From Agromyces aureus (GTDB lineage Bacteria > Actinomycetota > Actinomycetes > Actinomycetales > Microbacteriaceae): DNA of 64,000 bases. The notes below the pieces were generated by a model. The model had not been told where the DNA came from. It worked only from the letters and a program-made list of their open reading frames with translations, and did no database searches. The position numbers and the translations under genes were made by a program. Of the stretch, positions 35,457 through 62,447 are shown one piece after another. Positions within the stretch are counted from its first letter, which is position 1, and each line of letters begins with the position of its first letter. The DNA lies in the NCBI RefSeq assembly GCF_001660485.1, contig NZ_CP013979.1, positions 3,224,001-3,288,000 of the forward strand. The letters are read 5' to 3'.

Positions 35457-35538
35457 GCGCAACTCCGGAGCGCCCGCGCGACGCGCGGTCGATCATCAGC
35501 GACTCGCCGCTGAAAGCGCCCGGAGTCCGGAGTTGCGC
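35457..35538. repeat. 80-bp palindromic repeat, copy A
   Basis: The arms GCGCAACTCCGGA (35457-35469) and TCCGGAGTTGCGC (35526-35538) are perfect inverted copies, 82 bp end to end. It lies between convergent genes. See copies B-E at 39797, 39942, 61276 and 62363. Confidence 0.85.
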
Positions 35539-35559
35539 CGTCGGGCGGCGGACGTGGCG

Positions 35560-35979
35560 TCAGGCCGTGGTCGGGCGGACGGCCGGCACCTCGGCGGCGT
35601 CAGGGTCGGCGTCGGCTGCGTCGGCGCCCGCGTCTTCAGGGGCGGCGCGCTTCTGCCAGGGCCAGCGGCCCGAGATCTCGAGCTCGAGCGACCAGCTGAG
35701 GAACGTGCGGATGAGCACGATGATCGCGAGCACTCCGACCGACTCGAGGGTCGGCGTGACCGCGACGGTCTTGATGATGTCGGCCGCGACCAGCAGCTCG
35801 AGGCCGAGCAGGATCGCTCGCCCGAGCACTCGGCGGAACCGCGTGTAGATCGGGCTGCGTCGCCGCAGGCCCCGAAGCGCCGCGTCGACGCTCGCGTAGA
35901 GCACGCCGACGACGATCGCGACGACGCCGAGCGCGTCGATGACCTCGCCGACCGATTCGATGAACTCGCCGAACTGCAT
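35560..35979 (-). CDS. DUF1622 family membrane protein
   Basis: The 139-residue protein has three hydrophobic segments (about residues 12-32, 55-75, 85-102), with a conserved-looking RRVLGRAILLGLELLVAADIIKTV and IIVLIRTFLSWSLELEI. These features match DUF1622 proteins of unknown function. The last 35 residues are an acidic Ala/Pro/Asp tail. I chose ATG 35979 because AAGGAGG lies four bases upstream; an in-frame ATG at 35997 would include that site in the coding region. Confidence 0.82.
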   Translation of the reverse strand: MQFGEFIESVGEVIDALGVVAIVVGVLYASVDAALRGLRRRSPIYTRFRRVLGRAILLGLELLVAADIIKTVAVTPTLESVGVLAIIVLIRTFLSWSLELEISGRWPWQKRAAPEDAGADAADADPDAAEVPAVRPTTA

Positions 35980-36130
35980 GTCGCCTCCTTGCGCCACACG
36001 CTAGCGGCGCGAGCCCGAAGTTCGGGCACGACGTGCCGGGCGGAGCCGTGCGGACGCGGCAGTGTGCCGGCGCACCTTCCCACGCCCACGCCCACGGGCA
36101 CGCGCGTCAGCAGCCCACGACGGAACGAAC

Positions 36131-36180
36131 GGATGCCGCGGGCCGGCGCACCTTCCCGTGCGCGCCGGCCCGCGGCATCC
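36131..36180 (-). terminator. 19-bp perfect hairpin between pckG and the DUF1622 gene
   Basis: GGATGCCGCGGGCCGGCGC (36131-36149) and its exact complement (36162-36180) enclose a 12-base loop. This is the second of two hairpins downstream of pckG. Confidence 0.7.
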
Positions 36181-36208
36181 GCTCTCCGTGTCGTGCTCGC
36201 CGACCGCG

Positions 36209-36246
36209 CGGTGATGCGCCCCGCTTCGCGACGGGGCGCATCACCG
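36209..36246 (-). terminator. Terminator hairpin directly after pckG
   Basis: CGGTGATGCGCCCCG (36209-36223) pairs with CGGGGCGCATCACCG (36232-36246), a 15-bp stem about 20 bases beyond the stop codon. Confidence 0.75.
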
Positions 36247-36267
36247 GCCGGCGAGCAGGTCGAGCCG

Positions 36268-38178
36268 CTACGCCTGCTGGTGCTCCAGGTGGTAGCGGAG
36301 GCTCGCGAGCTCGGCGCGGAGGGCCGCCGGCACACGGTCGCCGAATTGCTCGAAGTACTCCTCGGTCATGGCGCACTCAGCGAGCCACGAGTCGCGGTCG
36401 ACGTCGAACAGGTGCTCGAGCGCCTCGTCGGTGATGTCGAGTCCGTCGAGGTTCAGGGCGCCGGATGCCGGGAGCAGCCCGATGGGCGTCTCCTCGACCT
36501 CTGCGCTGCCCTCGATGCGACCGACGATCCACTCGAGCACGCGCGAGTTCTCGCCGAACCCGGGCCAGAGGAACGAGCCGTCGTCACCCTTGCGGAACCA
36601 GTTCACCTGGAAGATCTTCGGGGCGTTCGTGCCGAGCACGCGGCCCATCTTGACCCAGTGGCTCCAGTAGTCGGCCATGTTGTAGCCGCAGAACGGGAGC
36701 ATGGCGAACGGGTCGCGGCGGAGCTCCCCGACGGTGCCCTCGGCGGCCGCCGTCTGCTCCGACGAGATCGTCGCGCCCATGAAGACGCCGTGCTTCCAGC
36801 TGCGGGCCTCGGCCACGAGCGGCACGTTCGTCGCGCGACGGCCGCCGAACAGGATCGCGTCGATCGGCACGCCGTCGTGCGCGTCCCAGTCGTCGGAGAT
36901 CTGCGGGCACTGGGCTGCGGCGACCGTGAAGCGCGAGTTCGGGTGCGCCGCGGGCCGACCGGAAGCCGGGGTCCACGGGTTGCCCTCCCAGTCGGTGAGC
37001 TCGGCCGGCGCGGTGTCGGTCAGGCCCTCCCACCAGACGTCGCCGTCGGGCCGCAGTGCCACGTTCGTGAAGATCGTGTTGCCCCAGAGCGTGTCGACCG
37101 CGGTCGGGTTGGTCGACTCGCCCGTACCGGGGGCGACGCCGAAGAAGCCGGCCTCGGGGTTGATCGCGTACAGGCGGCCGTCGGCGCCGGGGCGCATCCA
37201 GGCGATGTCGTCGCCGATCGTCTCGACCTTCCAGCCGGGGATCGTCGGCTGCAGCATGGCGAGGTTCGTCTTGCCGCAGGCCGACGGGAACGCCGCCGCC
37301 ACGTGGTAGCTGCGACCCTCGGGCGAGGTGATCTTGATGAGGAGCATGTGCTCGGCGAGCCAGCCCTCGTCGCGGGCCATGACGCTCGCGATGCGGAGCG
37401 CGAAGCACTTCTTCGCGAGCAGGGCGTTGCCGCCGTAGCCCGAGCCGTACGACCAGATCTCGCGCGAGTCGGGGAACTGCACGATGTACTTCGTCTCGTT
37501 GCAGGGCCAGTCGGCCTCGGCGACGCGGTGGCCGACGCCGTCGACGAGCGGGTGTCCGACCGAGTGCACGGTGCGCACCCACGGGTCGCCCGCCTCGATG
37601 AGGCGGTAGACCTGCTCGCCCATGCGCGTCATGATGCCCATCGAGAGCACGACGTACGGGGAGTCGGTGATCTCGACGCCGAGCTGGCTGATCGGTCCGC
37701 CGAGCGGGCCCATCGAGAACGGCACGACGTACATCGTGCGGCCCTTCATCGAGCCGTCGAACACGTCGTCGAGTTCGCCGCGCATGGCCTTCGGGTCGCG
37801 CCAGTTGTTCGTGGGGCCGGCGTCCTCCTCGTAGGTCGAGCAGATGAAGGTGCGGTCCTCGACCCGGGCGACGTCGCGCGGGTCGGTACGTGCGAGATAG
37901 CTGTTCGGGCGCCACTCGGGGTTCAGCTTGATCAGCTTGCCCTCGGCCACGAGTTGCTTGGTGAGCAGGTCGGCCTCGTGCTTCGAGCCGTCGCACCAGA
38001 CGATCTCGTCGGGCTTGGTGAGCGCGGCGACCTCGGCGACCCAGGCGCGCAGATCGGCGTCGGTCGTGCCGTGCGCGGCGGCGCGGCCGGCGCTGGTCGC
38101 GGTCGGTGCGTCTGCGCGGTCGGTGTCGGATGCGTCGACGGATGCCTCGGTGCCGGGCGTGAACTCGGAGATGGTCAT
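36268..38178 (-). CDS. pckG: Phosphoenolpyruvate carboxykinase (GTP)
   Basis: The 636-residue enzyme converts oxaloacetate and GTP to phosphoenolpyruvate, CO2 and GDP, the entry step of gluconeogenesis. GTP-type signatures are present: [20 protein letters not shown], the P-loop-like [16 protein letters not shown] with the active-site Cys, IGDDIAWM (metal Asp), and [25 protein letters not shown]. The first 40 residues are a low-complexity Asp/Ala/Thr extension. ATG 38178 has GAAGGG upstream. It is divergent from a RamB-like regulator, and a gluconeogenic-type GapB lies 8 kb away. Confidence 0.96.
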
Positions 38179-38284
38179 CGTCGTCCCTTCTGTGGTGCCG
38201 GTTTCGCCTCGCGGCGACCCCGGAATCGGTTCGTGTTTCCAGAATGCGGCGGATTGCGACATCCGACCGAGCAATTCAGGTGTT

Positions 38285-38310
38285 AAGAATGTGAGTTCTT
38301 TCGATAGGCT
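38285..38310 (+). promoter_or_regulatory. Leaderless promoter and inverted repeat of the RamB-like gene
   Basis: TAGGCT (38305-38310) ends six bases before ATG 38317. AAGAA-N6-TTCTT (38285-38300) occupies the spacer between -35 and -10 positions, suitable for autoregulation or for control of the divergent pckG. Confidence 0.55.
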
Positions 38311-38316
38311 TAAGGC

Positions 38317-39759
38317 ATGAAGGCCGGAACCACCGATCTCGCGACCCTGGGTCAGCGCATCCGACACTTCCGCGGCGAGCGCGGCATGACCCTCGACCAG
38401 GCGGGCGAGGCCGTCGGGCTCGCGGGGTCGCAGCTCTCGCTCATCGAGAACGGCAAGCGCGAGCCCAAGCTCTCGACGCTCGACGCGCTCGCGTCGGCAT
38501 TCGGCATCGGGCTCGAAGACCTGCTCTCGCGCGAGGCGCCGAGCCCTCGCGCGGCGCTCGAGCTCGAGCTCGGGCGCGCGCAGGCGAGTCCGCTCTACGC
38601 GAGCCTCGGGCTGCCGGCGATCCGCGCGGGCCGGGGCATCGGCGACGAGACCCTCGAGGCGATCGTGGGCCTGCACCGCGAGCTGCAGCGTCGCGCCAGC
38701 CAGGCGATCGCGACGCCCGAAGAGGCACGACGGGCCAACACCGACCTCCGCGAGCGCATGCGCGAGCGCGCGAACCACCTGCCCGACATCGAGCAGCTCG
38801 CCGAGGAGCAGGTGCGGGCCGCCGGCCACCGCACGGGCGCGGTCACGCACCGCGAGGTGAGCGTCATGGCCGAGCGGCTCGGATTCCAGCTCATCTACGT
38901 CAACGACCTGCCCGACTCGACGCGGTCGATCACCGACCTCGACAACGGGCGGATCTACCTGCCGCCCGCGTCGATCCCGGGCGGGCACGGGCTGCGGTCG
39001 ATGGCGCTGCAGGCCATGGCGCACCGCCTGCTCGGCCACCAGCCGCCGGCCAGCTACGACGAGTTCCTCTGGCAGCGGCTCGAGATCAACTACTTCGCCG
39101 CAGCCTGCCTGATGCCGCTCGACGCCTCCGTCGCGTTCCTGCAGCAGGCCAAGAAAGAGAAACGGCTCGCCATCGAGGACTTCCGCGACGCATTCGGCGT
39201 CACGCACGAGGCCGCGGCGCTGCGGTTCACGAACCTCGCCACGACCTCCCTCGACATGACCGTGCACTTCCTGCGCGTGGCAGGCGACGGCGCCCTGCTG
39301 AAGGGCTACGAGAACGACGGGCTGCCGCTGCCGACCGACGTCACGGGCTCGATCGAGGGCCAGTGGGTGTGCAAGAAGTGGAGTGCGCGCACCGCGTTCG
39401 AGCACACCAACCGCACGACCGAGAACTACCAGTACACCGATACGCCCGCCGGCACGTTCTGGTGCGCCACGCAGACCGGCCGAACGGATGCCGCGGAGTT
39501 CTCGATCTCGGTCGGCGTGCCGTTCGCGCAGGCGAAGTGGTTCCGCGGCCGCGAGACGACCCTGCGCGCCGTGTCGACGTGCCCCGACGAGGCGTGCTGC
39601 CGTCGGGCGCCCGACGGGCTCGCCGAGCGCTGGGCCGGGCGCGCCTGGCCGAGTGCGCGCCTGCACGCGCACGTGCTCTCGCCGCTGCCCTCCGGCACGT
39701 TCCCGGGCGTCGACGACGCCGAGGTGTACGCGTTCCTCGAGGCGCACGCCGAGCAGTAA
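38317..39759 (+). CDS. RamB/ScfR-like XRE-family regulator with ImmA/IrrE-like domain
   Basis: The 480-residue protein has an N-terminal XRE helix-turn-helix (residues 8-62: [41 protein letters not shown]). A middle ImmA/IrrE-like domain and a C-terminal DUF2083-type region with cysteines ([11 protein letters not shown]) follow. This is the layout of RamB and the short-chain fatty acyl regulators that control acetate, glyoxylate and propionate metabolism. The peptidase motif is degenerate (MAHRLLGHQ rather than HExxH), so it is probably a ligand-binding rather than a proteolytic domain. Divergence from pckG suggests control of gluconeogenesis. Confidence 0.87.
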
Positions 39760-39796
39760 GAAGGGCTCGCAGCCGCCGAGCATCGGGTGCCACGTC

Positions 39797-39876
39797 GCAA
39801 CTCCGGATGCGGGCGTCGACTCGCCGCAGACGTCGCGCGACACGCCGGACGCGGGGCCGCGACATCCGGAGTTCGG
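39797..39876. repeat. 80-bp palindromic repeat, copy B
   Basis: AACTCCGGATG (39799-39809) and CATCCGGAGTT (39863-39873) are perfect inverted arms. It belongs to the same CTCCGGA subfamily as copy A. Confidence 0.82.
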
Positions 39877-39941
39877 CCGCGCACCCGGCCGCAGAACGCC
39901 CGCCCGCGGCATCCGCCCGACCGCCTGATCCCTCGACCTGT

Positions 39942-40021
39942 GCGCAATTCAGGATGCCTCGGCGACACGCCGCCGTGCGAACCCCGACGCGCCGGAAACC
40001 GCGTGGATCTCCTGAATTCGA
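39942..40021. repeat. 80-bp palindromic repeat, copy C
   Basis: AATTCAGG (39946-39953) pairs with CCTGAATT (40011-40018). The left half (39944-39973) is identical over 30 bases to copy D at 61277-61306. Confidence 0.85.
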
Positions 40022-40075
40022 CACCGCTCGCCGCCCGAACCGGTCGCCGCTGCATCCGTCACGATGAAGTGACTG

Positions 40076-40104
40076 TTGCAATAGTGTGTGCCACACAGTA
40101 TCGT
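40076..40104 (+). promoter_or_regulatory. padR promoter with palindromic operator
   Basis: The -35 TTGCAA (40076-40081) and -10 TATCGT (40099-40104) are 17 bp apart, and the -10 ends seven bases before ATG 40112. A 21-bp near-palindrome (40081-40101), with arms TGTGTG and CACACA flanked by ATA and TAT, fills the spacer. It matches the ATGT/ACAT-like style of PadR operators and implies autorepression. Confidence 0.65.
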
Positions 40105-40111
40105 GTGACGC

Positions 40112-40519
40112 ATGAACCCCGATGAGACGACGACCGCGCACCTGCAGGAGCTGCGCCGCGGCACGGTCGTGCTCGCCTGCCTCGTGCGCCTGCGCACGCC
40201 CGACTACGGGTACGCGCTGCTCGAGTCGCTGAACGGCCTCGGCATCCTCGTCGACGCGAACACGCTGTACCCGCTGCTCCGTCGCCTCGAGAAGCAGGGC
40301 CTGCTCACGAGCGAGTGGAACACCGACGAGGCGAGGCCCCGCAAGTTCTACCGCACGAGCCCCACCGGCGACGCGCTCGCGATCGCCCTCAGGTCCGACT
40401 GGCGCCGCATCGACGACGCCCTCGGCGGACTCACCACCGACCAAGCGGGCGGCAACGGCCCCGCCGACACCACCGGCGCCGACACCACCGGCACCGACAC
40501 CACCGGAGACGCATCATGA
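40112..40519 (+). CDS. PadR-family transcriptional regulator
   Basis: The 135-residue protein has the PadR winged helix: LRRGTVVLACLVRL, YGYALLESLNGLGILVDANT, LYPLLRRLEKQGLLTSEW and PRKFYRTSPTG. A Thr/Asp/Gly tail (TTGADTTGTDTTG) follows. It overlaps the next gene by four bases (ATGA). That gene encodes a membrane protein with a HAAS-like N-terminal region, a pairing common in Firmicutes and Actinobacteria in which the regulator controls itself and its membrane partner. Confidence 0.9.
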   Translation: MNPDETTTAHLQELRRGTVVLACLVRLRTPDYGYALLESLNGLGILVDANTLYPLLRRLEKQGLLTSEWNTDEARPRKFYRTSPTGDALAIALRSDWRRIDDALGGLTTDQAGGNGPADTTGADTTGTDTTGDAS

Positions 40520-41526
40520 CCGACCTCACCGACCGCTACCTCTTCGCGGCCACGCGCAGCCTTCCCGCGGCGCAGCGCGAGGACCTCTCGAGGGACCTCG
40601 CCGAGCGCATCGCCGACACGATCGACGCCCGCATCGAGTCTGGTGCCTCGACCCCCGAGACCGCCGAGCGCGACGCTCTCATCGAGCTCGGCCACCCTGC
40701 ATCGCTCGCGGCGACGTACAGCGACCGACCCCTCGTGCTCATCGGGCCGCGCTACTTCCTGATCTGGAAGCGACTGCTGCTCTTCCTCGAGTCGTTCGTG
40801 CCGGCGACCGTCGCAGGCGTCGCCGCCCTCGGCCTCGTGATCTCGGGCGGCGGCTGGGAGGTCATCGGCGCGGCGATCGGCATCGGCATCAACGTCGCCG
40901 TGCAGCTCGCGTTCTGGACGACCGCCGTGTTCGCCATGATCGAGCGGTTCGGCACGGGCACCGACGCCGAGCTCGGCTGGACGCCCGAGCACCTCCCGCA
41001 ACTGCCGGAGGTGCGGCGCCCGCACCGCCGCGCCGACCTCATCGCGAGCCTGGTCTGGCTCGTGATCGCCGCCGGGTTCGTCGTGTGGCAGCAGTTCGGC
41101 GTCGTCTGGGTCGACGGCGAGCGCATCGCGGTGCCGCTGCTCGCGCCCGATCTGTGGTCGTTCTGGCTGCCGTACCTGTTCGTGCTCATCGCGCTCGAGG
41201 CCGCCTTCGCCGTCTGGATCTACCGCAGCGACTGGAACTGGGTGAACGCGCTCGTGAACGTCGCGCTGAATGCGGCGTTCGCGGTTCCGGCGGTCTGGCT
41301 CTTCGTCGAAGGCCGCCTGCTCAGCCCCGAGTTCCTCGCGGTGATCGAACCGCACCTCGACGCCGATGCGGAGTGGGTGCTGTCGGTGATCTTCGTCGCG
41401 GGCGTCGTCGCCGCCTGCGCCTGGGATGCGATCGACGGCATCGTCAAGGCGGTGCGCGGCGGCGGCCGCGGCACGCTCGACTTCCCGGGCAACCGCAGCC
41501 CGCGTCGCGCAAGCGCCAACCACTGA
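40516..41526 (+). CDS. Membrane protein with HAAS/permease-prefix-type N-terminal domain
   Basis: The 336-residue protein starts with a roughly 70-residue helical domain (RYLFAATRSLPAAQREDLSRDLAERI, AERDALIELGHPASLAATYS), which matches the HAAS or permease-prefix regions that partner with PadR regulators. About seven hydrophobic segments follow (residues 95-130, 155-190, 205-300). The function is unknown; signalling to the adjacent PadR through the prefix domain is the usual proposal. It is translationally coupled to padR by ATGA. A 36-bp perfect palindrome follows the stop. Confidence 0.8.
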   Translation: MTDLTDRYLFAATRSLPAAQREDLSRDLAERIADTIDARIESGASTPETAERDALIELGHPASLAATYSDRPLVLIGPRYFLIWKRLLLFLESFVPATVAGVAALGLVISGGGWEVIGAAIGIGINVAVQLAFWTTAVFAMIERFGTGTDAELGWTPEHLPQLPEVRRPHRRADLIASLVWLVIAAGFVVWQQFGVVWVDGERIAVPLLAPDLWSFWLPYLFVLIALEAAFAVWIYRSDWNWVNALVNVALNAAFAVPAVWLFVEGRLLSPEFLAVIEPHLDADAEWVLSVIFVAGVVAACAWDAIDGIVKAVRGGGRGTLDFPGNRSPRRASANH

Positions 41527-41560
41527 GGTCGGGGTCGGCCCGGCCCGACGACCGGCGCAG

Positions 41561-41596
41561 GACGAGGGGCGGATGCCGCGGCATCCGCCCCTCGTC
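41561..41596. terminator. 36-bp perfect palindrome (bidirectional terminator)
   Basis: The sequence is exactly self-complementary over 36 bases, GACGAGGGGCGGATGCCG and its reverse complement, with no spacer. It lies between convergent genes. Confidence 0.8.
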
Positions 41597-41635
41597 ATGT
41601 TCACCGCCGGGCGCGGCGGGCGCAGGTTCGAGCGG

Positions 41636-42427
41636 TTACTTCGGCCCCATGCGGATCGCCCCGTCGAGGCGGATCGTCTCGCCGTTCAGCAGCGGGTTCT
41701 CGACGATGTGGCGCACGAGCCCGGCGTACTCGGCGGGCGTGCCCATGCGCGAGGGATGCGGGATCTGCTCCTCGAGGGAGGCCTGCACCTCGGGCGGCAT
41801 GCCCGCCATCATGGGCGTCTGCATGATGCCCGGCGCGATCGTGACGACCCTGATGAGCAGCTTCGAGAGGTCGCGCGCGAGCGGCAGGGTCATGGCCGCG
41901 ACGCCGCCCTTCGAGGCCGAGTAGGCGGCCTGCCCGATCTGGCCGTCGAAGGCCGCGACCGAGGCGGTGTTGACGATGACCCCGCGCTCGGCGGTGTCGG
42001 GCACCCCAGGCAGGGTCTGCACGACGACGGGGTCGTTGGCCGACATCGCGGCCGCCGCGAGCCGCGCGACGTTGAACGTTCCGATGAGGTTGATGCGGAT
42101 GGTGCGCTCGAACGCGTCGAGCGCGAGGGGTCCGTCGCGCCCGACCGTGCGGCCGGCCGTCGCGATGCCCGCGCAGCTCACGGCCACGCGGAGCGGCGCA
42201 CGCTGCTGCACGAGGTCGATCGCCGCCTGCACGGAGGCCTCGTCGGTGACGTCGGCCGGTGCGAAGCGCACGCGATCGCCGAGCTCTTGCGCGGTCTGCT
42301 CGCCGGGTGAGCCGGGGAGGTCGAGGATGACCACCTGGGCGCCGGCTGCGGCGAGCACGGCGGCCGTGCCCCGCCCGAGCCCGGAGGCGCCTCCGGTGAC
42401 GATCGCGCCTGCGTCGGTCAGCTGCAT
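41636..42427 (-). CDS. Short-chain dehydrogenase, 3-hydroxyacyl-CoA dehydrogenase-like
   Basis: The 263-residue Rossmann-fold oxidoreductase carries the SDR cofactor motif TGGASGLG near residue 11. It also has the NAD-selective Asp in VVILDLPG, the NTAS of the catalytic tetrad, and YSASKGG (Tyr/Lys). Residues such as SCAGIATAGRT and GPLALDAFERTIRINLIGTF resemble the human HSD17B10 type of 3-hydroxyacyl-CoA dehydrogenase. The upstream thiolase on the same strand supports a role in beta-oxidation-like degradation. ATG 42427 has AAGGA about ten bases upstream. A long hairpin separates it from the thiolase. Confidence 0.88.
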   Translation of the reverse strand: MQLTDAGAIVTGGASGLGRGTAAVLAAAGAQVVILDLPGSPGEQTAQELGDRVRFAPADVTDEASVQAAIDLVQQRAPLRVAVSCAGIATAGRTVGRDGPLALDAFERTIRINLIGTFNVARLAAAAMSANDPVVVQTLPGVPDTAERGVIVNTASVAAFDGQIGQAAYSASKGGVAAMTLPLARDLSKLLIRVVTIAPGIMQTPMMAGMPPEVQASLEEQIPHPSRMGTPAEYAGLVRHIVENPLLNGETIRLDGAIRMGPK

Positions 42428-42454
42428 GGGTTCGGGGTCCTTTCGTTCGTTCGT

Positions 42455-42505
42455 TCGGTCGCATGTGGTCGGAATACGTCCATCATTCCGACCACATGCG
42501 ACCGA
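42455..42505 (-). terminator. 21-bp perfect hairpin between thiolase and SDR genes
   Basis: The arms 42455-42475 and 42485-42505 are exact reverse complements, core GGTCGCATGTGGTCGGAAT, around a nine-base loop. A TTCG tetranucleotide run (42443-42456) abuts it. It may terminate or attenuate read-through from the thiolase. Confidence 0.7.
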
Positions 42506-42545
42506 TCGAGGGGTGGTGCGGGTCTGAGGGGTGGGTCCGCGTTCG

Positions 42546-43730
42546 CTAGACGCGTTCGATGATCGTGGCGTTGGCCATGCCGCCGCCCTCGCACATGGTC
42601 TGCAGCCCGTAGCGCCCGCCGGTGGCCTCGAGCTGGTTCACGAGGGTCGTGAGCAGGCGCGTGCCCGAGGACCCGAGCGCGTGGCCGAGGGCGATGGCGC
42701 CGCCCCGGGGGTTGAGCTTCGCGACCTCCGCCCCGGTCTCGGCGAGCCAGGCGAGCGGAACGGACGCGAACGCCTCGTTCACCTCGTAGGCGTCGATGTC
42801 GTCGTGGCCGAGGCCGGCGCGGGCGAGCACGCGCTCGGTCGCCGGGATCACGCCGGTGAGCATGTACAGCGGATCGCTGCCCACGACGGCGAACGAGCGG
42901 AATCGCGCGCGGGGCGTCAGTCCGAGCTTCTCTGCGGCATCCGCACTCATGATGAGGGCGGCGGATGCGCCGTCGGTGAGCGGCGAGGAGTTGCCGGGCG
43001 TGATGCGCCAGTCGAGCTCGGGGAACCGCTCGGCCAGCGCGTCGGTGCGGAAGGCCGGGTTCAGGCCGGCGAGCCCCTCGGCCGTGGTGCCGGGGCGCAC
43101 GGTCTCGTCGGCGAGCGAGGCGTGCGCGTCGAGGCCTGGCACGGGCACGACCTCGGTCGCGAACGCACCCGACTCCCCCGCGACTGCGGCGAGCGCATGC
43201 GAGCGAGCCGCGTAGGCGTCGAGCTCGGCGCGCGAGAGGCCCCACTTCGCCGCGATGAGCTCGGCCGAGACGCCCTGGTTCACGAGCCCGTCGGGGTAGC
43301 GCGAGCGGATGCGGCTGCCGTACGGGTCGGCGCCGGCCGCGCTCGAGCCGAGCGGCACGCGGCTCATCGACTCGACGCCGCACGCGATGACGATGTCGGC
43401 CTGGCCGGCCAGCACGGCCTGCGCCGCGAACGTCGCCGCCTGCTGGCTCGACCCGCACTGGCGGTCGATCGTGGTGCCCGGCACGTGCTCGGGGAACCCG
43501 GCGGCCAGCACGGCGTTGCGGGTCACGTTGTACGACTGCTCGGCGACCTGGCTGACGCATCCGCCGATCACGTCGTCGACGAGACCGGGGTCGAGGTCGT
43601 TGCGGTTCACGAGCGAGTCGAGCACGCCCGCCAGCAGGTCGACCGGATGCACGCCCGAGAGCAGGCCGCCCGGCTTGCCCCGGCCCGCCGGAGTACGGAT
43701 CACATCGACGATGACGGCTTCGGCGCTCAT
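42546..43730 (-). CDS. Acetyl-CoA C-acyltransferase (thiolase)
   Basis: The 394-residue thiolase has all three family signatures: the acyl-enzyme Cys in TTIDRQCGSSQQA, the NEAFASVPLAW motif, GGAIALGHALGSSG (catalytic His) and CEGGGMANA (second catalytic Cys). Its length and motifs fit acyl-CoA thiolases of steroid or fatty-acid breakdown as well as acetoacetyl-CoA thiolases. The chain-length preference is not readable. ATG 43730 has TAGGCT six bases upstream. It is followed by an SDR resembling 3-hydroxyacyl-CoA dehydrogenase, giving the last two steps of a beta-oxidation round. Confidence 0.93.
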   Translation of the reverse strand: MSAEAVIVDVIRTPAGRGKPGGLLSGVHPVDLLAGVLDSLVNRNDLDPGLVDDVIGGCVSQVAEQSYNVTRNAVLAAGFPEHVPGTTIDRQCGSSQQAATFAAQAVLAGQADIVIACGVESMSRVPLGSSAAGADPYGSRIRSRYPDGLVNQGVSAELIAAKWGLSRAELDAYAARSHALAAVAGESGAFATEVVPVPGLDAHASLADETVRPGTTAEGLAGLNPAFRTDALAERFPELDWRITPGNSSPLTDGASAALIMSADAAEKLGLTPRARFRSFAVVGSDPLYMLTGVIPATERVLARAGLGHDDIDAYEVNEAFASVPLAWLAETGAEVAKLNPRGGAIALGHALGSSGTRLLTTLVNQLEATGGRYGLQTMCEGGGMANATIIERV

Positions 43731-43736
43731 GCGCCA

Positions 43737-43742
43737 AGCCTA
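43737..43742 (-). promoter_or_regulatory. Leaderless-type -10 box of the thiolase gene
   Basis: Read on the minus strand, TAGGCT ends six bases before ATG 43730. Confidence 0.5.
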
Positions 43743-43817
43743 CGGCGGCCCGCGGTGCCCGCGCCGCTCAGGGGTAGTCCGGATGCCGGGGGCGGCCGCA
43801 CGCCGGAGGATCGGCGC

Positions 43818-45860: not shown

Positions 45861-45871
45861 GCACGAGATGA

Positions 45872-45910
45872 CGGATGCCGCGGGCCGAACACGTCGGTCC
45901 GCGGCATCCG
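45872..45910 (+). terminator. 17-bp terminator hairpin
   Basis: CGGATGCCGCGGGCCGA (45872-45888) pairs with TCGGTCCGCGGCATCCG (45894-45910) with one G-T pair and a five-base loop, between convergent genes. Confidence 0.75.
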
Positions 45911-45931
45911 CGCATCTCAGGCGGCGTCGCG

Positions 45932-48359: not shown

Positions 48360-48365
48360 GCGCTC

Positions 48366-50463: not shown

Positions 50464-50469
50464 GGCCCG

Positions 50470-53320: not shown

Positions 53321-53326
53321 GCGGAT

Positions 53327-53349
53327 GCCGCGGCGACCCGCCCCGCGGC
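53327..53349. terminator. Hairpin between convergent ThDP-enzyme and glycosyltransferase genes
   Basis: GCCGCGG (53327-53333) pairs with CCGCGGC (53343-53349), loop of nine bases. Confidence 0.45.
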
Positions 53350-53425
53350 ACGCTCGACGGCGAGGGCCTCGGCGAGTCGTTCGGGTCGACCGGCCGTGAC
53401 GTCGGCAGGTTATGGCGGCGGCAGG

Positions 53426-54439: not shown

Positions 54440-54524
54440 ACCGAAACCGTAGTGCCGACGAGGGCGTCGCGCGAGGTCCCCCGCTGTCGGCGTGACGTGA
54501 TGCATCGGGTGCGCGTCGACGACA

Positions 54525-54538
54525 GATCGTATACGATC
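54525..54538. promoter_or_regulatory. GATCGTATACGATC palindrome, probable GntR operator
   Basis: This perfect 14-bp palindrome centred on GTATAC lies 31 bases before the hpaH start and overlaps its likely -10 (TACGAT). VanR-type GntR regulators bind GTATAC-core palindromes. The GntR gene at 57715 is in the same cluster. Confidence 0.65.
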
Positions 54539-54569
54539 GCAGCAGGCCCCGACGAAGTGGAGTTCCCCC

Positions 54570-55355: not shown

Positions 55356-56161
55356 CCCTCCCGCCGACGCTCGGCGCCCGCATCGCGGCATCCGATCGCC
55401 CGCTCGTCGGCGGCTGGTCGTGCGCCGGAAGCGCGACCAACGCCGAGATCGTCGCCGGCTCGGGCCTCGACGTCGTGCTCATCGACGCCGAGCACTCCCC
55501 CGCAGACCTCGAGTCGGTGCTCGCACAGCTGCACGCGGTCGCCGCCTATCCGGTCGCGCCGCTCGTGCGACCGCCGTTCGGCGACGCGGTCACGCTCAAG
55601 CGCTACCTCGACATCGGCGCGCAGAACCTGCTCGTCCCAATGGTCGACACGGCCGATCAGGCGGCCGAGATCGTTCGCGCGGTGCGCTATCCGATGCTCG
55701 GCATTCGCGGCGTCGGCAGCGCCCTCGCCAGGTCGTCTCGCTGGAACCGGGTCGAGGGCTACCTCGACGACGCGTCGTCGACCATCACGCTGTTCGTGCA
55801 GGTCGAATCGGCGACCGCCGCGGCGAATGTCGACGAGATCCTCGCGGTCGACGGCGTCGACGGCGTCTTCTTCGGCCCGTCCGACCTCGCCGCATCGATG
55901 GGGCTGCTCGGGCAGCAGGAGCACCCCGAGGTCGTCGCGTCGGTGCTCGCGGGCATCGCGGCCGCGCAGGCCGCGGGCAAGCCGTCGGCCGTCAACGCGT
56001 TCGCACCCGCGGCAGCAGACCGCTATCTCGCCGCGGGCGCCTCGCTCGTGTTCGTCGGCGCCGATGTCGCGCTGCTGGCCCGCGCCACCGAGGCCCTCGC
56101 CGACCGGTTCATCCCGCAGCCGGAGACGGATGCCTCGGGCGAACCGCGCGCCTCCTACTGA
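55340..56161 (+). CDS. hpaI: 4-hydroxy-2-oxoheptanedioate aldolase-like protein
   Basis: The 273-residue class II aldolase of the HpaI/citrate-lyase-like family splits 4-hydroxy-2-oxoheptanedioate to pyruvate and succinate semialdehyde. Signatures: GLDVVLIDAEHSPADLES, the catalytic Arg in APLVRPP, FVQVESATAAANVDEI (metal Glu) and VFFGPSDLAASMG (metal Asp). Two starts are possible. ATG 55340 has GGGA nine bases upstream and overlaps hpaH by 16 bases. ATG 55352 makes an ATGA overlap and would give 269 residues. Confidence 0.92.
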   Translation: MPIRMTLPPTLGARIAASDRPLVGGWSCAGSATNAEIVAGSGLDVVLIDAEHSPADLESVLAQLHAVAAYPVAPLVRPPFGDAVTLKRYLDIGAQNLLVPMVDTADQAAEIVRAVRYPMLGIRGVGSALARSSRWNRVEGYLDDASSTITLFVQVESATAAANVDEILAVDGVDGVFFGPSDLAASMGLLGQQEHPEVVASVLAGIAAAQAAGKPSAVNAFAPAAADRYLAAGASLVFVGADVALLARATEALADRFIPQPETDASGEPRASY

Positions 56162-56193
56162 CCGGCCGCCCTCAGGGCTTGCCGATCTCCCCA

Positions 56194-56206
56194 GATCGTA
56201 TATCAT
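56194..56206. promoter_or_regulatory. GATCGTATATCAT site upstream of the FAH-RraA gene
   Basis: It shares eight bases (GATCGTAT) with the palindrome at 54525 and lies 28 bases before ATG 56234. A second half-site-like GATATCA follows at 56211. Confidence 0.55.
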
Positions 56207-56233
56207 TTCAGATATCACCAGACGAGGATGTCC

Positions 56234-57718
56234 ATGACCGCCATCGCAACGCCGGGCAAGATCATCGCCGTGCACCTCAACTACCCGTCGAGGGCCGCGC
56301 AACGCGGACGCACGCCCGCCCAGCCCAGCTACTTCCTGAAGCCCGCGTCGTCGGTCTCCGGCACCGGCGGCACGATCGAACGCCCCGCGGGCACCGAGCT
56401 GCTCGCGTTCGAGGGTGAGATCGCCATCGTCATCGGCGAGCGCGCCCGCCACGTCTCCCCCGCCGACGGCTGGCGGCACGTGGCCGCCGTCACCGCGGCG
56501 AACGACTTCGGCGTCTACGACCTGCGCGCCGCCGACAAGGGATCGAACGTGCGCAACAAGGGCGGAGACGGCTTCACGCCGCTCGGCCCGGTGCTGATCC
56601 CCGCGAGCGTCGCCGACGAGGGCGGCTGGCGCGTGCGCACCTGGGTCAACGGCGCGCTCGTGCAGGAGGACACCTCCGACACCCTGCTCTTCCCGTTCGG
56701 CCGACTCGTCGCCGACCTCTCGCAGCACCTCACCCTCGAACCGGGCGACGTGATCCTCACGGGCACGCCCGCGGGTTCCTCGGTCGTCCTGCCCGGTGAC
56801 GTCGTCGAGGTCGAGGTCGATGCTCCGGATGCCGCGGGCTCGCCGTCGACCGGCCGCCTCGTCACGACCGTGACGCAGGGCGACGTGCCGTTCGGCGACT
56901 TCGGCTCGAAGCCCGCGATCGACGACGACCAGCGCATCGAGGCCTGGGGCTCGGAGGCCGAGCTCGCAGCGGCCGTGGCCGCCGGCCGGGCGACGGCACC
57001 CGCGGCATCCGCCCCGTCCGTGCTCACCGACGAGCTCCGCGCCGCGATCGGCGGCGTCGCCGTCGCGACCCTCTCGGTCGCGCTGCGCAAGCGCGGCTAC
57101 CACGACGTGTTCATCGAGGGCGTGCGCGCGAACCACCCGGGCGACCGCCTGGTCGGCCTTGCGAAGACGCTCCGGTTCATCCCGTTCCGGCCCGACCTGT
57201 TCGCGAGCCACGGCGGTGGGTTCAACGCGCAGAAGCTCGCGTTCGACACCGTCGAGCCGGGCGAGGTACTCGTGGTCGAGGCCCGCGGCGAGCGCGGCAC
57301 CGGAACCGTCGGCGACGTGCTCGCCCTCCGGGCCCAGGTGCGCGGCGCGGCCGGCATCGTGACCGACGGCGGCGTCCGCGACTTCGACGCCGTCGCGGGC
57401 TTCGAGATCCCCGTGTTCTCGCAGGGCCCGCACCCGAGCGTGCTCGGCCGTCGGCACGTGCCGTGGGAGGTCGACGTCACGATCGCCTGCGGCGGCGCGG
57501 CCGTGCAGCCCGGCGACGTCATCGTGGGCGACGGCGACGGGGTGATCGTGATCCCGCCGCAGCTCCTGGCCGAGGTCGTGGCCGAGGCGGTCGTGCAGGA
57601 GGCCGAGGAGGCGTGGGTCGCCGAACAGGTCGCGGGCGGGGCATCCGTCGACGGGCTGTTCCCGATGAACGCGGAGTGGCGGGCACGCTACGAAGCCGAG
57701 CGGCAGGACACCCCGTGA
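56234..57718 (+). CDS. Fumarylacetoacetate hydrolase-RraA fusion protein
   Basis: The 494-residue protein joins two catalytic-type domains. Residues 1-235 are a fumarylacetoacetate hydrolase domain (LAFEGEIAIVIGE, VTAANDFGVYDLR, KGGDGFTPLGPVLIP, ILTGTPAG). After an Ala-rich linker, residues 260-490 form an RraA/HMG-aldolase-like domain (LRFIPFRPD, DVLALRAQVRGAAGIVTDGGVRD, GDVIVGDGDGVIVIP). In classical HpaG both halves are FAH domains acting as decarboxylase and isomerase. Here RraA replaces one, so it could supply an oxo-acid decarboxylase step. I chose ATG 56234, with GAGG six bases upstream, over ATG 56228. Confidence 0.85.
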   Translation: MTAIATPGKIIAVHLNYPSRAAQRGRTPAQPSYFLKPASSVSGTGGTIERPAGTELLAFEGEIAIVIGERARHVSPADGWRHVAAVTAANDFGVYDLRAADKGSNVRNKGGDGFTPLGPVLIPASVADEGGWRVRTWVNGALVQEDTSDTLLFPFGRLVADLSQHLTLEPGDVILTGTPAGSSVVLPGDVVEVEVDAPDAAGSPSTGRLVTTVTQGDVPFGDFGSKPAIDDDQRIEAWGSEAELAAAVAAGRATAPAASAPSVLTDELRAAIGGVAVATLSVALRKRGYHDVFIEGVRANHPGDRLVGLAKTLRFIPFRPDLFASHGGGFNAQKLAFDTVEPGEVLVVEARGERGTGTVGDVLALRAQVRGAAGIVTDGGVRDFDAVAGFEIPVFSQGPHPSVLGRRHVPWEVDVTIACGGAAVQPGDVIVGDGDGVIVIPPQLLAEVVAEAVVQEAEEAWVAEQVAGGASVDGLFPMNAEWRARYEAERQDTP

Positions 57719-58383
57719 CGCCCGAGAGCAAGTCGCAGCGCGCCTACCGCTTCATCCGCGAGCGCATCGACGACGGGCGCTACGTGCCCGGGTACCGGCT
57801 CGTGCTCGGCACGATCGCGGGCGAGCTCGACGTGAGCGTCGTGCCCGTGCGCGAGGCGATCCGCCGCCTCGAGGCCGAGGGGCTCGTCACGTTCGAGCGC
57901 AACATCGGTGCGCAGGTCGCCCTCATCGAGGAGACCGAGTACCTGCACACCATGCAGACCCTCGCGCTCGTCGAGGGCGCCGCGACCGCCCTGTCGGCTC
58001 CGGCGCTCACGACGGAGCACCTGCACCGCGCCCGCGAGGTCAACGAGCGGATGCGCCGCACCCTCGACGACTTCGAACCGCACCGCTTCACCGAACTCAA
58101 CCTCGAGTTCCACGCGGTGCTGTTCGAGGAGTGCCCGAACCCGCACATCCTCGACCTCGTCCACCGCGGATGGAACCGCATGAAGGTGCTTCGCGACTCG
58201 TCGTTCAGCTTCGTGCCGGGCCGCGCCCACGAGTCCGTCGCCGAGCACGACCGCATCCTCGACCTCATCGAGTCGAACGCCGACCCGCTCGACGTCGAGC
58301 TCGCCGCCCGGGCCCACCGCACCGCCACGCTCGACGCGGTGCTCGCCTACCAGGCCGACCACAAGCATCCGCCCGCCGCCTGA
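57715..58383 (+). CDS. GntR-family regulator (FCD subfamily)
   Basis: The 222-residue protein has an N-terminal GntR winged helix (AYRFIRERIDDGRYVPGYRL, LDVSVVPVREAIRRLEAEGLV) and an FCD effector domain (ALVEGAATALSAPALT, LNLEFHAVLFEECPNPHIL, SVAEHDRILDLIES). The FCD metal ligands (Asp/His, His, His) appear to be present. The start is GTG 57715, overlapping the FAH-RraA stop (GTGA). It is the probable repressor of the homoprotocatechuate genes through GTATA-core sites at 54525 and 56194, and perhaps 51447. Confidence 0.9.
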   Translation: MTPESKSQRAYRFIRERIDDGRYVPGYRLVLGTIAGELDVSVVPVREAIRRLEAEGLVTFERNIGAQVALIEETEYLHTMQTLALVEGAATALSAPALTTEHLHRAREVNERMRRTLDDFEPHRFTELNLEFHAVLFEECPNPHILDLVHRGWNRMKVLRDSSFSFVPGRAHESVAEHDRILDLIESNADPLDVELAARAHRTATLDAVLAYQADHKHPPAA

Positions 58384-58429
58384 CCTGTACCTGTACGTCG
58401 CACTCGCGCATCGCAGAACGGAAGAACCC

Positions 58430-59938
58430 ATGACCGATCACACCCCCGAGGGCCTGCCCGACCGCATCCGTCACTACATCGACGGCGAGTTCGTCGACTC
58501 GATCGACGGCGACACGTTCGAGGTGCTGAACCCCGTCACGAACGAGACCTACGTGCTCGCCGCCGCCGGCAAGAAGGCCGATGTCGATCGTGCGGTCGCC
58601 GCCGCACGCCGGGCGTTCACCGAGGGCCCGTGGCCGAAGATGCTCCCCCGCGAGCGCTCGCGGGTGCTGCACCGCATCGCCGACCTCGTCGAGTCCCGCG
58701 ACGCCCGCCTCGCCGAGCTCGAGAGCTTCGACTCGGGCCTGCCGATCACGCAGGCGCTCGGCCAGGCCCGTCGCGCGGCCGAGAACTTCCGCTTCTTCGC
58801 CGACCTCATCGTCGCCCAGTCCGATGACGCGTTCAAGGTGCCGGGCAAGCAGATGAACTACGTGAACCGCAAGCCGATCGGCGTCGCGGGCCTCATCACG
58901 CCGTGGAACACGCCGTTCATGCTCGAGTCGTGGAAGCTCGGCCCCGCCCTCGCGACCGGCAACACCGTCGTGCTGAAGCCCGCCGAGTTCACCCCGCTCT
59001 CGGCCTCGCTCTGGGCCGGCATCTTCGAGGAGGCCGGCCTGCCGAAGGGCGTCTTCAACCTCGTCAACGGCCTCGGCGAAGACGCCGGCGACGCACTCGT
59101 CAAGCACCCCGACGTGCCCCTCATCTCGTTCACCGGCGAGAGCTCGACCGGGCAGCTGATCTTCGCCAACGCCGCGCCGTACCTCAAGGGGCTCTCGATG
59201 GAGCTCGGCGGCAAGAGCCCGGCCATCGTCTTCGCCGACGCCGACCTCGGCACGGCGATCGACGCGACGATCTTCGGCGTGTTCTCGCTGAACGGCGAGC
59301 GCTGCACCGCCGGCAGCCGCATCTTGGTGCAGCGCGAGGTCTACGACGAGTTCGTCGAGCGCTACGCCGCGCAGGCCGCACGCGTCGTCGTGGGCCACCC
59401 GCACGACCCGAAGACCGAGGTCGGCGCCCTCGTGCACCCCGAGCACTACGACAAGGTCATGAGCTACATCGAGCTCGGCAAGGCCGAGGGCCGTCTCGTC
59501 GCCGGCGGCGGGCGTCCGGAGGGTTTCCCGACGGGCAACTACGTGGCCCCCACGGTGTTCGCGGATGTCGCGCCCGATGCCCGCATCTTCCAGGAGGAGA
59601 TCTTCGGCCCGGTCGTCGCGATCACCCCCTTCGACACCGACGACGAGGCGCTCGCGCTCGCGAACGACACGAAGTACGGCCTCGCAGCCTACGTCTGGAC
59701 CAACGACCTCACGCGCGCCCACACCTTCGCGCAGTCCGTCGAAGCGGGCATGGTGTGGCTCAACTCGAACAACGTGCGCGACCTCCGAACCCCCTTCGGC
59801 GGGGTCAAGGCCTCCGGGCTGGGGCACGAGGGCGGCTACCGCTCGATCGACTTCTACACCGACCAGCAGAGCGTGCACATCACGCTCGGGGCCCCGCACA
59901 ACCCGACCTTCGGCCGCCGGGTTGAGGAGGCGCCCTAG
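58430..59938 (+). CDS. hpaE: 5-carboxymethyl-2-hydroxymuconate semialdehyde dehydrogenase
   Basis: The 502-residue NAD-dependent aldehyde dehydrogenase has the catalytic Glu in MELGGKSPAIV and the nucleophile Cys in LNGERCTAGSRI, plus the NAD-binding FTGESSTGQ. Its close placement with HpaD, HpaH and HpaI supports oxidation of the ring-cleavage aldehyde. The HpaE name rests on context as much as on sequence. ATG 58430 is preceded by GGAAGAA. Confidence 0.9.
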   Translation: MTDHTPEGLPDRIRHYIDGEFVDSIDGDTFEVLNPVTNETYVLAAAGKKADVDRAVAAARRAFTEGPWPKMLPRERSRVLHRIADLVESRDARLAELESFDSGLPITQALGQARRAAENFRFFADLIVAQSDDAFKVPGKQMNYVNRKPIGVAGLITPWNTPFMLESWKLGPALATGNTVVLKPAEFTPLSASLWAGIFEEAGLPKGVFNLVNGLGEDAGDALVKHPDVPLISFTGESSTGQLIFANAAPYLKGLSMELGGKSPAIVFADADLGTAIDATIFGVFSLNGERCTAGSRILVQREVYDEFVERYAAQAARVVVGHPHDPKTEVGALVHPEHYDKVMSYIELGKAEGRLVAGGGRPEGFPTGNYVAPTVFADVAPDARIFQEEIFGPVVAITPFDTDDEALALANDTKYGLAAYVWTNDLTRAHTFAQSVEAGMVWLNSNNVRDLRTPFGGVKASGLGHEGGYRSIDFYTDQQSVHITLGAPHNPTFGRRVEEAP

Positions 59939-60022
59939 CGCCGTCTCGAAACCAAGGCCTGAGCCGCGGCATCCGCCCGCTCGAATGTTTCCGAGACAAC
60001 GACCGACAGCAAGGACGCTGAC

Positions 60023-61183
60023 ATGACCCACCGCACAGGACCATCGCACCGAGATGGCATGACCCTCACCTCGTCGGGCTTCTACGTCTCCCAGGAGGCC
60101 CCGATCCGCTCGAGCAACCCGGTGCCGACGCCCTCGGCGCCCGCCCCCGACATCCTGCGCTGCGCGTACATGGAGCTCGTGGTGACCGACCTGGCCGCGT
60201 CGCGCGTGTTCTACGTCGACGTGCTCGGCCTCTACGTCACCGAGGAGGACGACGAGGCGATCTACCTGCGCTCGACCGAGGAGTTCATCCACCACAACCT
60301 CGTGCTGCGGCAGGGACCCGTCGCGGCCGTCGCGGCGTTCTCGTACCGCGTGCGCTCGAACGACGACCTCGAAAAGGCGGTCGCGTTCTACTCGGAACTC
60401 GGATGCCGCGTCGAACGTCGTGCCGACGGCTTCACCAAGGGCATCGGCGACTCCGTCCGCGTCGAGGACCCCCTCGGGTTCCCCTACGAGTTCTTCTTCG
60501 AGACCACGCACGTCGAGCGCCTGTCGTGGCGCTACGACCTGCACACGCCGGGCGAGCTCGTGCGCCTCGACCACTTCAACCAGGTGACGCCCGACGTGCC
60601 GCGCGCCGTGAACTTCATGCAGTCCCTCGGGTTCCGCGTCACGGAGGACATCCAAGACGAGGAGGGCGTCGTCTACGCGGCGTGGATGCGCCGCAAGCCC
60701 ACCGTGCACGACACCGCCATGACCGGTGGCGATGGCCCGCGCATGCACCACGTCGCGTTCGCGACGCACGAGAAGCACAACATCCTCGCGATCTGCGACA
60801 AGCTCGGCGCCCTGCGCCGATCGGATGCGATCGAGCGCGGACCCGGCCGCCACGGCGTCTCGAACGCGTTCTACCTCTACCTCCGCGACCCCGACGGCCA
60901 CCGCGTCGAGATCTACACGCAGGACTACTACACGGGCGACCCCGACAACCCCGTCGTCACGTGGGACGTGCACGACAACCAGCGCCGCGACTGGTGGGGC
61001 AACCCCGTCGTGCCCTCCTGGTACACCGAGGCGTCGCTCGTGCTCGACCTCGACGGCAACCCCAAGCCCGTCGTCACCCGCACCGACTCGTCGGAGATGG
61101 CCGTCACGATCGGCGCCGACGGCTTCTCGTACACGCGCTCGGGCGACGAGGAACGCGGCTTCAAGCTCGGCAACACCCTGTAA
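60023..61183 (+). CDS. hpaD: 3,4-dihydroxyphenylacetate (homoprotocatechuate) 2,3-dioxygenase
   Basis: The 386-residue extradiol ring-cleavage dioxygenase of the vicinal oxygen chelate superfamily contains two metal-binding His and one Glu: RLDHFNQVTPD, MHHVAFATH and HRVEIYTQDY. It resembles the well-studied Brevibacterium/Arthrobacter homoprotocatechuate dioxygenases in length and in its long C-terminal extension (GDPDNPVVTWDVHDNQRRDWWG). It opens the ring of homoprotocatechuate; HpaE then oxidises the product. AAGGA precedes ATG 60023. A hexanucleotide microsatellite begins 24 bases after the stop. Confidence 0.93.
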   Translation: MTHRTGPSHRDGMTLTSSGFYVSQEAPIRSSNPVPTPSAPAPDILRCAYMELVVTDLAASRVFYVDVLGLYVTEEDDEAIYLRSTEEFIHHNLVLRQGPVAAVAAFSYRVRSNDDLEKAVAFYSELGCRVERRADGFTKGIGDSVRVEDPLGFPYEFFFETTHVERLSWRYDLHTPGELVRLDHFNQVTPDVPRAVNFMQSLGFRVTEDIQDEEGVVYAAWMRRKPTVHDTAMTGGDGPRMHHVAFATHEKHNILAICDKLGALRRSDAIERGPGRHGVSNAFYLYLRDPDGHRVEIYTQDYYTGDPDNPVVTWDVHDNQRRDWWGNPVVPSWYTEASLVLDLDGNPKPVVTRTDSSEMAVTIGADGFSYTRSGDEERGFKLGNTL

Positions 61184-61206
61184 CTCGGGTCTCGCCCGCG
61201 CCCGCG

Positions 61207-61272
61207 CCCTCTCCCTCTCCCTCTCCCTCTCCCTCTCCCTCTCCCTCTCCCACTCCCACTCCCACTCCCTCT
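61207..61272. repeat. Hexanucleotide microsatellite, eleven units
   Basis: Seven CCCTCT units, three CCCACT units and a final CCCTCT follow without interruption, directly between the hpaD stop and palindromic repeat D. Simple hexamer arrays of this purity are unusual in a bacterial chromosome. Confidence 0.9.
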
Positions 61273-61275
61273 GCA

Positions 61276-61354
61276 GGCAATTCAGGATGCCTCGGCGACA
61301 CGCCGCACCGCGCCGCGGGTTCCCCGGCGCGCCGTCGCGACATCCTGAGTTGCC
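61276..61354. repeat. 80-bp palindromic repeat, copy D
   Basis: GGCAATTCAGGATG (61276-61289) pairs with CATCCTGAGTTGCC (61341-61354), one G-T pair. It overlaps the 3' end of the AbiEi/DUF559 gene and supplies its TGA stop. Confidence 0.88.
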
Positions 61355-62265
61355 CACGGCGGCGGGTTGGCCGTCGACCAGAGGTGGTCGCCGCGCCGCA
61401 GGTGCATGCGGACCGCATCGAACACCTCATCCCACCGCTCGATCACCTGCCGATGACTGAACGAGAGGTGGGCGTAGCCGACTGCCTTCAGCCAGGCCCA
61501 GCGCGCGCGATCGCGGTCGAATGCGCCCGGCTCGGTGTGTGGTCCTTCCCCGTCGACCTCGAACACGAGGCGGTCGCCGATGAGGATGTCCGCGAAATGG
61601 CCGCCGATCAGCGGCATCTGGGCGCGTACCGGAACTCCGGCAGCGGTGAGACGCTCGCGCGCGACCGTCTCACCGACGGATTGGCTGCCGGTGATCGATC
61701 GCTCCGCAACCCGGCGCGCGGAGACGCTCAGGCGAGCGAGCAACGCCTGGAAGGCCGTCTCCTCGAGCAGTTGGGGGCGTTCGGGTCGCCACGGCACGCG
61801 CTCGCGCGCGGAGTCGAGGACGCACAGCGCTTCCACCGGAGGAAGGCAGCCCATCACGTGCTCGAGGCAGCGCGAGAGCGAGACCATGGCGCCCTCCGCC
61901 TGCGCGTCGGGTTCCCAGTGAACGCGAACATCCGGACTCGGCAGGGTGAGTGGCCGAGCTGTGCCGGGGTGCCTCAGTCTCGCCGCGTTCGACGCCACCT
62001 CGACGTGCAGCTTCGGTGGTGTGCCGAGCACGCGGAGGCCATGCAGGTGAGCCGCGGACACGCACGTCAGCCGACCGCCCACGCGCGCGGCCTGTTTGAG
62101 TTCGGTTGCGATGCGCGGGTCGCAGTACACGCCACGGTGGAGTCGCTCGATCTCCCCGCGGTTGACGGCGACGGCGATTCCTCGCTCGGTGAAGCCCGCC
62201 TGCGCGAGGTCGGCTGTGGAGCAGATGCCGCCGGTGGATCCGATCAGCCTGCGCAATTCGCTCAT
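61282..62265 (-). CDS. AbiEi-type N-terminal domain plus DUF559 endonuclease-fold protein
   Basis: The 327-residue protein begins with a winged-helix domain like those of AbiEi antitoxin-type proteins (GSTGGICSTADLAQAGFTERGI, NRGEIERLHRGVYCD). The middle is less conserved, and residues about 215-300 match DUF559, a Vsr-like PD-(D/E)XK fold (HFADILIGDRLVFEVDGEGPH, FDRDRARWAWLKAVGYAHLSFSHRQV). Such proteins are numerous in actinobacteria, with unknown function. I chose ATG 62265; the frame is open to 62523, but that stretch includes repeat E. The last 23 or so residues and the stop are encoded by repeat D, so the C-terminus is repeat-derived. Confidence 0.8.
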   Translation of the reverse strand: MSELRRLIGSTGGICSTADLAQAGFTERGIAVAVNRGEIERLHRGVYCDPRIATELKQAARVGGRLTCVSAAHLHGLRVLGTPPKLHVEVASNAARLRHPGTARPLTLPSPDVRVHWEPDAQAEGAMVSLSRCLEHVMGCLPPVEALCVLDSARERVPWRPERPQLLEETAFQALLARLSVSARRVAERSITGSQSVGETVARERLTAAGVPVRAQMPLIGGHFADILIGDRLVFEVDGEGPHTEPGAFDRDRARWAWLKAVGYAHLSFSHRQVIERWDEVFDAVRMHLRRGDHLWSTANPPPWATQDVATARRGTRGAVRRVAEAS

Positions 62266-62362
62266 CGGCACAGCTTGGTCGTCTGCCAATGGTGGCGGCT
62301 CGAAATCTCGGGGCCGTGTGGGTTCCTCAGCCCCGTGCGCGGGTGGTGAGGCCGAGTCGGGT

Positions 62363-62447
62363 GTCGGCAACTCAGGATGTCTCGGCGACGCGCCGAGCCA
62401 TTCGCCGGAACGCCCCGCGTGTCGTCGGCGCGTCCTGAGTTGCCGAC
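62363..62447. repeat. 80-bp palindromic repeat, copy E
   Basis: Its 17-base arms (62363-62379 and 62431-62447, GTCGGCAACTCAGGATG) pair with one mismatch. It has the TCGGCGACGCGCCG core of copies C and D. Confidence 0.88.

Follow-up and report, generated by a model that had tools for sequence, protein, structure and literature searches.

Palindromic repeats and a DUF559 gene in the window

The window, a stretch of 64,000 nucleotides (positions 3224001-3288000) of the 4.37-Mb one-contig genome of Agromyces aureus, contains five palindromes of about 80 bp, elements A to E, and a DUF559 gene that lies between D and E (Table 1). All five palindromes had been proposed in a preliminary description and were found where it placed them, give or take a few bases. 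Its account of their arms held but for the right arms of B and C, where GAACTCCGGA and GAATTCAGGA, respectively, stand in place of GCAAY. The core said to be common to three copies, TCGGCGACRCGCCG, is present in C, D and E, whilst C and D are identical over 30 bases beginning GCAATTCAGG, and the division into a CTCCGGA (A, B) and a YTCAGGA (C to E) subfamily is real. A short tandem repeat of CTCTCC type (61195-61270) directly adjoins element D. About four tandem units like GGGTCAAGCGCGCA lie at 62525-62590, upstream of the next gene, and the sequence beyond such units is recognisable in A. allii (L071).

Table 1. Elements A to E and the DUF559 gene, with positions in the window.
Feature	Position	Strand	Description
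Element A	35457..35538	+	CTCCGGA subfamily; solitary, between convergent genes
Element B	39797..39876	+	CTCCGGA subfamily; same intergenic region as C
Element C	39942..40021	+	Left arm TTCAGGA, with core; right arm GAATTCAGGAGATC
Element D	61276..61354	+	Downstream bracket of the DUF559 gene; holds the gene's last codons and stop
Element E	62363..62447	+	Upstream bracket of the DUF559 gene
DUF559 gene	61282..62265	-	327 aa from MSELRR (putative start); AbiEi-like N-terminal part, Vsr-like nuclease C-terminal part (predicted)

Matches to AAYTCMGGAYGY with at most one mismatch numbered 10 in the window, 8 of them inside elements; 100 shuffles gave a mean of 2.89 and never as many as 10. The pattern CAAYTCMGGA occurs 23 times in the genome, sometimes outside elements, compared with 2 occurrences of a reversed control pattern. 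A covariance model built from 12 copies gave 35 matches in the genome, mostly both strands of one place and amounting to at least 18 places. Five of these copies fall within 27 kb (window 35457-62447), far denser than the genome average. Within the genus the model also found matches in 30 of 37 genomes (counting A. aureus); across 23 genomes from other genera it gave a single weak one (E = 0.0056).

The elements start with GCAAYTCMGGA. Between the arms little is conserved apart from a well-preserved inner block close to the left one, GCGACRCGCCG. In the 18 listed copies the arms lie 73-76 bases apart, and the A/C position agrees between them in every case (18/18), which none of 2000 re-pairings reached. 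Outer positions -3 and -6 covary too (p = 0.0005 and 0.003), and agreement at +17/+18, between the arms, is weak (p = 0.03-0.04). The family had been thought either REP (repetitive extragenic palindromic)- or MITE (miniature inverted-repeat transposable element)-like or a structured RNA. The former is borne out by the further copies in genome and genus, the compensatory changes in the arms and the relatives that lack copies at orthologous sites (see below); the structured RNA reading is not supported. No Rfam family was found at the elements at gathering score, and a known RNA family was rejected, the sole match in the window being a flavin mononucleotide (FMN) riboswitch aptamer elsewhere (23108-23252; 88.8 bits, gathering 66.2). 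The elements are long GC-rich hairpins. A composition method placed 16 of the 18 listed copies, among them D and E, downstream of one gene or more (settings of all 18: 11 tandem, 5 convergent and 2 divergent, B probably being miscalled).

The protein encoded between D and E matches the profiles AbiEi_4 (3.8e-8) and DUF559 (PF04480; 5.1e-6, exceeding the cut-off), the latter titled 'Protein of unknown function' in Pfam. Its N-terminal half resembles AbiEi, and PADLOC returned AbiEi models only. A Vsr-like nuclease fold is predicted for the other half, whose closest likeness in fold is a homing endonuclease, and the catalytic-type residues are conserved. No NCBIfam match was found for this protein. 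The genome contains two DUF559 matches and none to PF01797 (Y1/HUH transposase); a RAYT (REP-associated tyrosine transposase) was therefore rejected as the mobiliser.

Palindromes on both sides of DUF559 genes

We sampled 65 of the 131 DUF559 matches in Agromyces, 60 of these coming for the most part from the list's weaker half. A model-free scan of the 65 loci found same-arm inverted repeats on both sides in 30, compared with 4/65 shuffled loci, and the arms differed from gene to gene. Across 80 loci there were 328 inverted repeats, as against 130 in shuffled sequence. Under a loose rule, 41/60 DUF559 loci were bracketed versus 7/57 other gene stops, with backgrounds of 20/468 at random positions, 25/400 in the window, 56/360 in the Agromyces loci (true cases included) and 6/114 in shifted windows. 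Because the looser controls gave more background, a stricter score was adopted, which adds up six 12-base arm identities per palindrome pair, with a cut-off of at least 60/72, one palindrome in a zone around the gene start, the other around the stop, and spans within 6 bases. Both tests excluded three loci that by eye are plain Vsr (L152, L154, L156) and one in the wrong frame (L186); L171, at a contig end, was also left out of the loose test, and L082 (A. terreus) was added to the strict one.

In the strict test, 42 of 62 Agromyces loci were bracketed outside both gene ends by same-arm palindromes, whose spans (42-91 bases) differ by 0 or 1 base within a pair. Swapped pairings scored in 6/246 cases. 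Among 287 other genes, picked for their codon composition within parts of four Agromyces genomes, a single one was bracketed (42/62 vs 1/287, Fisher p = 1e-37, ignoring relatedness of loci). This lone control match is a moeA-like gene (by eye) in genome G006, between two copies of another family. These counts bear on whether the elements are bidirectional terminators of the ordinary sort, or REP-like hairpins unconnected with DUF559, as long GC-rich hairpins mostly at gene 3' ends might well be. However, same-arm palindromes stand on both sides of DUF559 genes, upstream too, and next to never do so at other genes, which contradicts terminators as a full account and leaves that reading highly improbable; single elements could nevertheless act as terminators.

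Beyond the genus, one locus from each of 29 genomes, rather than every match, was taken for the family and class samples, a pair being sought 900-1450 bases apart around the domain with spans within 4 bases. Brackets were found at 12/29 loci from other genera of the family (swapped pairings 0/113) and at 7/29 loci class-wide (swapped 0/112), one of the seven (L283) being from Agromyces. Of 60 family genomes, one per genus and with A. aureus counted in, 37 have DUF559 matches, as do 81 of 118 in the class.

The loci of the window, of A. italicus and of genome G031 all lie downstream of the same dioxygenase gene, and a one-locus accident was therefore suspected. This was rejected because other loci show the same anatomy with other arms. 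In A. terreus a DUF559 gene occupies the same place, downstream of the dioxygenase gene, with different arms (GCCGGATTCGG), and in A. allii (L071) a short stretch downstream of that gene contains neither a DUF559 gene nor palindromes. Two palindrome pairs about 1 kb apart in G006, and likewise one pair in G024, have no DUF559-like motif between them, and in G011 one pair encloses what by eye is a FolD-like gene. Palindromes with still other arms were seen at L102, L119, L134, L113, L117 and other loci, some recurring within one 13-kb locus (e.g. AGAACAGGNGATG).

Arm specificity, dispersal and turnover between species

The arms track the proteins. The mean best arm match rose from 6.2 bases at <25% protein identity to 12.6 at >=60% (Spearman 0.309, permutation p = 0.001; 835 pairs, 42 loci). 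The CTCCGGA arm of A and B also brackets a DUF559 gene in G008, and the two subfamilies may therefore reflect two related enzymes.

Arms are also dispersed as families. The 13-base arm of the second A. aureus DUF559 gene, AATTCAGGAGATC, has 12 matches in this genome at 8 places, 9 in G015, 8 in G060 and 0-2 in each of 38 other genomes. In A. aureus, G015 and G060 alike, two such matches about 1.1 kb apart flank a DUF559 match (262150, C20:634072 and C1:273323, respectively), the brackets in the latter two resting on match coordinates. One of the 8 places is the right arm of element C, where GAATTCAGGAGATC (40006-40018) includes the 13-base arm; with its left arm from the first family and its right from the second, C is possibly a hybrid element. 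The arm of a G022 gene, CGAACGGTCGCA, has 14 matches at 8 places in G022; of 40 other genomes, 34 have 0-3 and six have 4-10. That of a G006 gene, CCGAGTACGCA, has 27 in G006, 25 in G024, 9 in G001 and 0-7 elsewhere.

The palindromes also vary between relatives at orthologous sites. The intergenic stretch holding B and C, 276 bases long here, measures 9 bases in G008, the relative with the top score, between flanks of 93-94% identity. This site was read in 15 of a further 40 genomes. The stretch does not exceed 58 bases in nine, some of which have a short terminator-like hairpin there, and is 88 bases in one; the five at 139-228 bases contain a larger palindrome (by eye). The palindrome of G015 carries arms of the present family and that of G033 arms resembling those at the DUF559 gene of G033 itself; another is common to G021 and G018, G032 has a fourth and G022 its own family. 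Two tandem palindromes (165 bases) in G006 correspond to 17 bases in G024, and a second site carries a different palindrome in each of these two species. A comparison of G033 with G021 (94.8% identical over one 6.4-kb stretch) covered about 197 kb and revealed 19 insertions or deletions of at least 35 bases, at least 3 of them with palindromes by eye; three of the six large ones contained no DUF559-like protein by eye.

This turnover has to be weighed against the idea of a DNA-binding protein that regulates itself, with the palindromes serving as operators both at its gene and at others. The AbiEi-like N-terminal half would suit such a role, and AbiEi is reported to repress its own promoter and to bind inverted repeats there (PMC3985639). 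Operators, however, would hardly be expected downstream of the gene itself and of at least one gene at nearly all listed copies, nor at sites that vary among related species and may harbour different families, and a regulator would not explain the conserved catalytic-type residues. We therefore regard a regulon as quite unlikely.

Alternatively, older intergenic repeats spread by something else may have been settled by a homing DUF559 gene, with the palindrome doubled at its ends. The predicted fold, closest to a homing endonuclease, the position of the gene between two copies and the ratio of at least 18 family palindromes to two DUF559 matches in this genome would all be in keeping with such a parasite. 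Against it, the arm is gene-specific and tracks protein relatedness, and one family is rich in matches solely in those genomes in which they flank a DUF559 match. A gene that drives the repeat therefore fits better than the reverse, and we consider the homing parasite improbable.

Lastly, conflict systems typically show many gene-specific recognition sequences, and the nuclease, with its AbiEi-type N-terminus, might be restriction-like or toxic, the palindromes marking or sequestering it. Defence or addiction of this kind does not predict the scatter and turnover of the palindromes, and there is very little chance that it is the explanation.

Proposed mobile palindromes of DUF559 genes and known systems

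Taken together, these data suggest that the palindromes are small non-autonomous mobile repeats belonging to a cognate DUF559 gene, a whole explanation to which we assign a probability of about 0.68. In this reading the full unit would be a DUF559 gene between two copies (here D and E), and A, B, C and the other scattered copies palindrome-only units. The AbiEi-like winged-helix half most likely reads the arm of about 11 bp, one monomer per palindrome half, so that two monomers on a palindrome would place two Vsr-like nuclease domains there. A cut at or near the palindrome, followed by repair copying, could then spread it to intergenic sites and occasionally carry the gene along. If each protein reads its own arm, a genome would gather the families of those DUF559 genes that it has or recently had. 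What the sequences show directly is the bracketing, the arms particular to each gene, their dispersal and the insertion polymorphism; the folds are predictions, and arm binding, cleavage and copying, with its direction, are inferences. Somewhat less firmly, though still as the probable case, we propose that a large, so far unnamed actinobacterial class of mobile palindromes has AbiEi-DUF559 proteins as its enzymes, with own-arm recognition, self-bracketing and solitary copies seeded by homing-type cut-and-repair, unrelated to the HUH chemistry of REP/RAYT systems.

Several observations weigh against a cognate, gene-driven repeat. No bracket was found by our tests at 20/62 Agromyces loci, 17/29 loci of other genera and 22/29 loci of the class, and the moeA-like gene of G006 shows that palindromes can flank non-DUF559 genes too. 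The arm at D and E is CTCAGGA, whereas the CTCCGGA arm of A and B brackets, in our sample, a gene of another species (G008) and none here. Some of the enzymes look broken, since the two halves lie in different frames both in the second gene of this genome (L060, G000:C1:260500-264000), where the palindromes are intact and scattered, and in the G031 gene (L055). G061 has 10 matches of the G022 arm and one DUF559 match in the genome. G024 has 25 matches to CCGAGTACGCA and 4 DUF559 matches, none adjoining among the matches listed; this exception favours either the homing parasite or a lost gene, and the G024 family is possibly one whose enzyme was lost. Finally, no clear target-site duplication was read at the compared sites, where the flanks have diverged.

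No published description of the pairing of DUF559 genes with palindromes was found in the open-access literature, preprints excluded, a scope that makes this absence weak evidence. DUF559 genes, common in actinobacteria, are now linked to their own palindromic repeats, and a recognition code becomes testable with the tens of natural protein/arm pairs that genomes offer. If true, the cognate-gene reading could account for part of the palindromic intergenic DNA of these bacteria. The bracketing seen in many related genes looks like an unrecognised kind of small mobile DNA.

Among known systems, MITEs and insertion-sequence remnants are likewise short, intergenic, inverted at their ends and present or absent between relatives, but here no target duplication was read and a whole palindrome, not half, stands at each gene end. 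Homing enzymes are tied to an intron or a single site. The present nuclease differs from I-Bth0305I and other Vsr-type endonucleases in being fused to an AbiEi-like half and linked to multi-copy palindromes, and from AbiEi antitoxins in its C-terminal nuclease domain and in palindromes that flank the gene on both sides and are scattered in the genome. The closest likeness is to REPINs (REP doublets forming hairpins) and their RAYTs, with scattered intergenic palindromes whose inverted half-units surround a variable middle, and with two copies bracketing an enzyme gene, as at D and E and the other bracketed Agromyces loci. Several families in a single genome, each near its own enzyme, are likewise described for REPIN/RAYT systems (PMC2817692, PMC3116915). 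The copy number here, at least 18, is below the >100 given as usual for REPs (PMC2817692), and by eye no GTAG/GTGG-like head precedes the hairpin in our elements. Above all, the enzyme is AbiEi-like plus Vsr-like nuclease and not a Y1 (HUH) transposase. With a similar anatomy on an unrelated enzyme, the DUF559 system is thus no member of REPIN/RAYT, though working alike, and is best read as a REPIN/RAYT-like system on a homing-type nuclease. If a kind were defined by anatomy alone, it would count as a REPIN/RAYT variant; we regard it as a kind of its own, since it has another class of enzyme and hence another chemistry. If the reading is true, the REPIN/RAYT way of life would have arisen a second time, independently.
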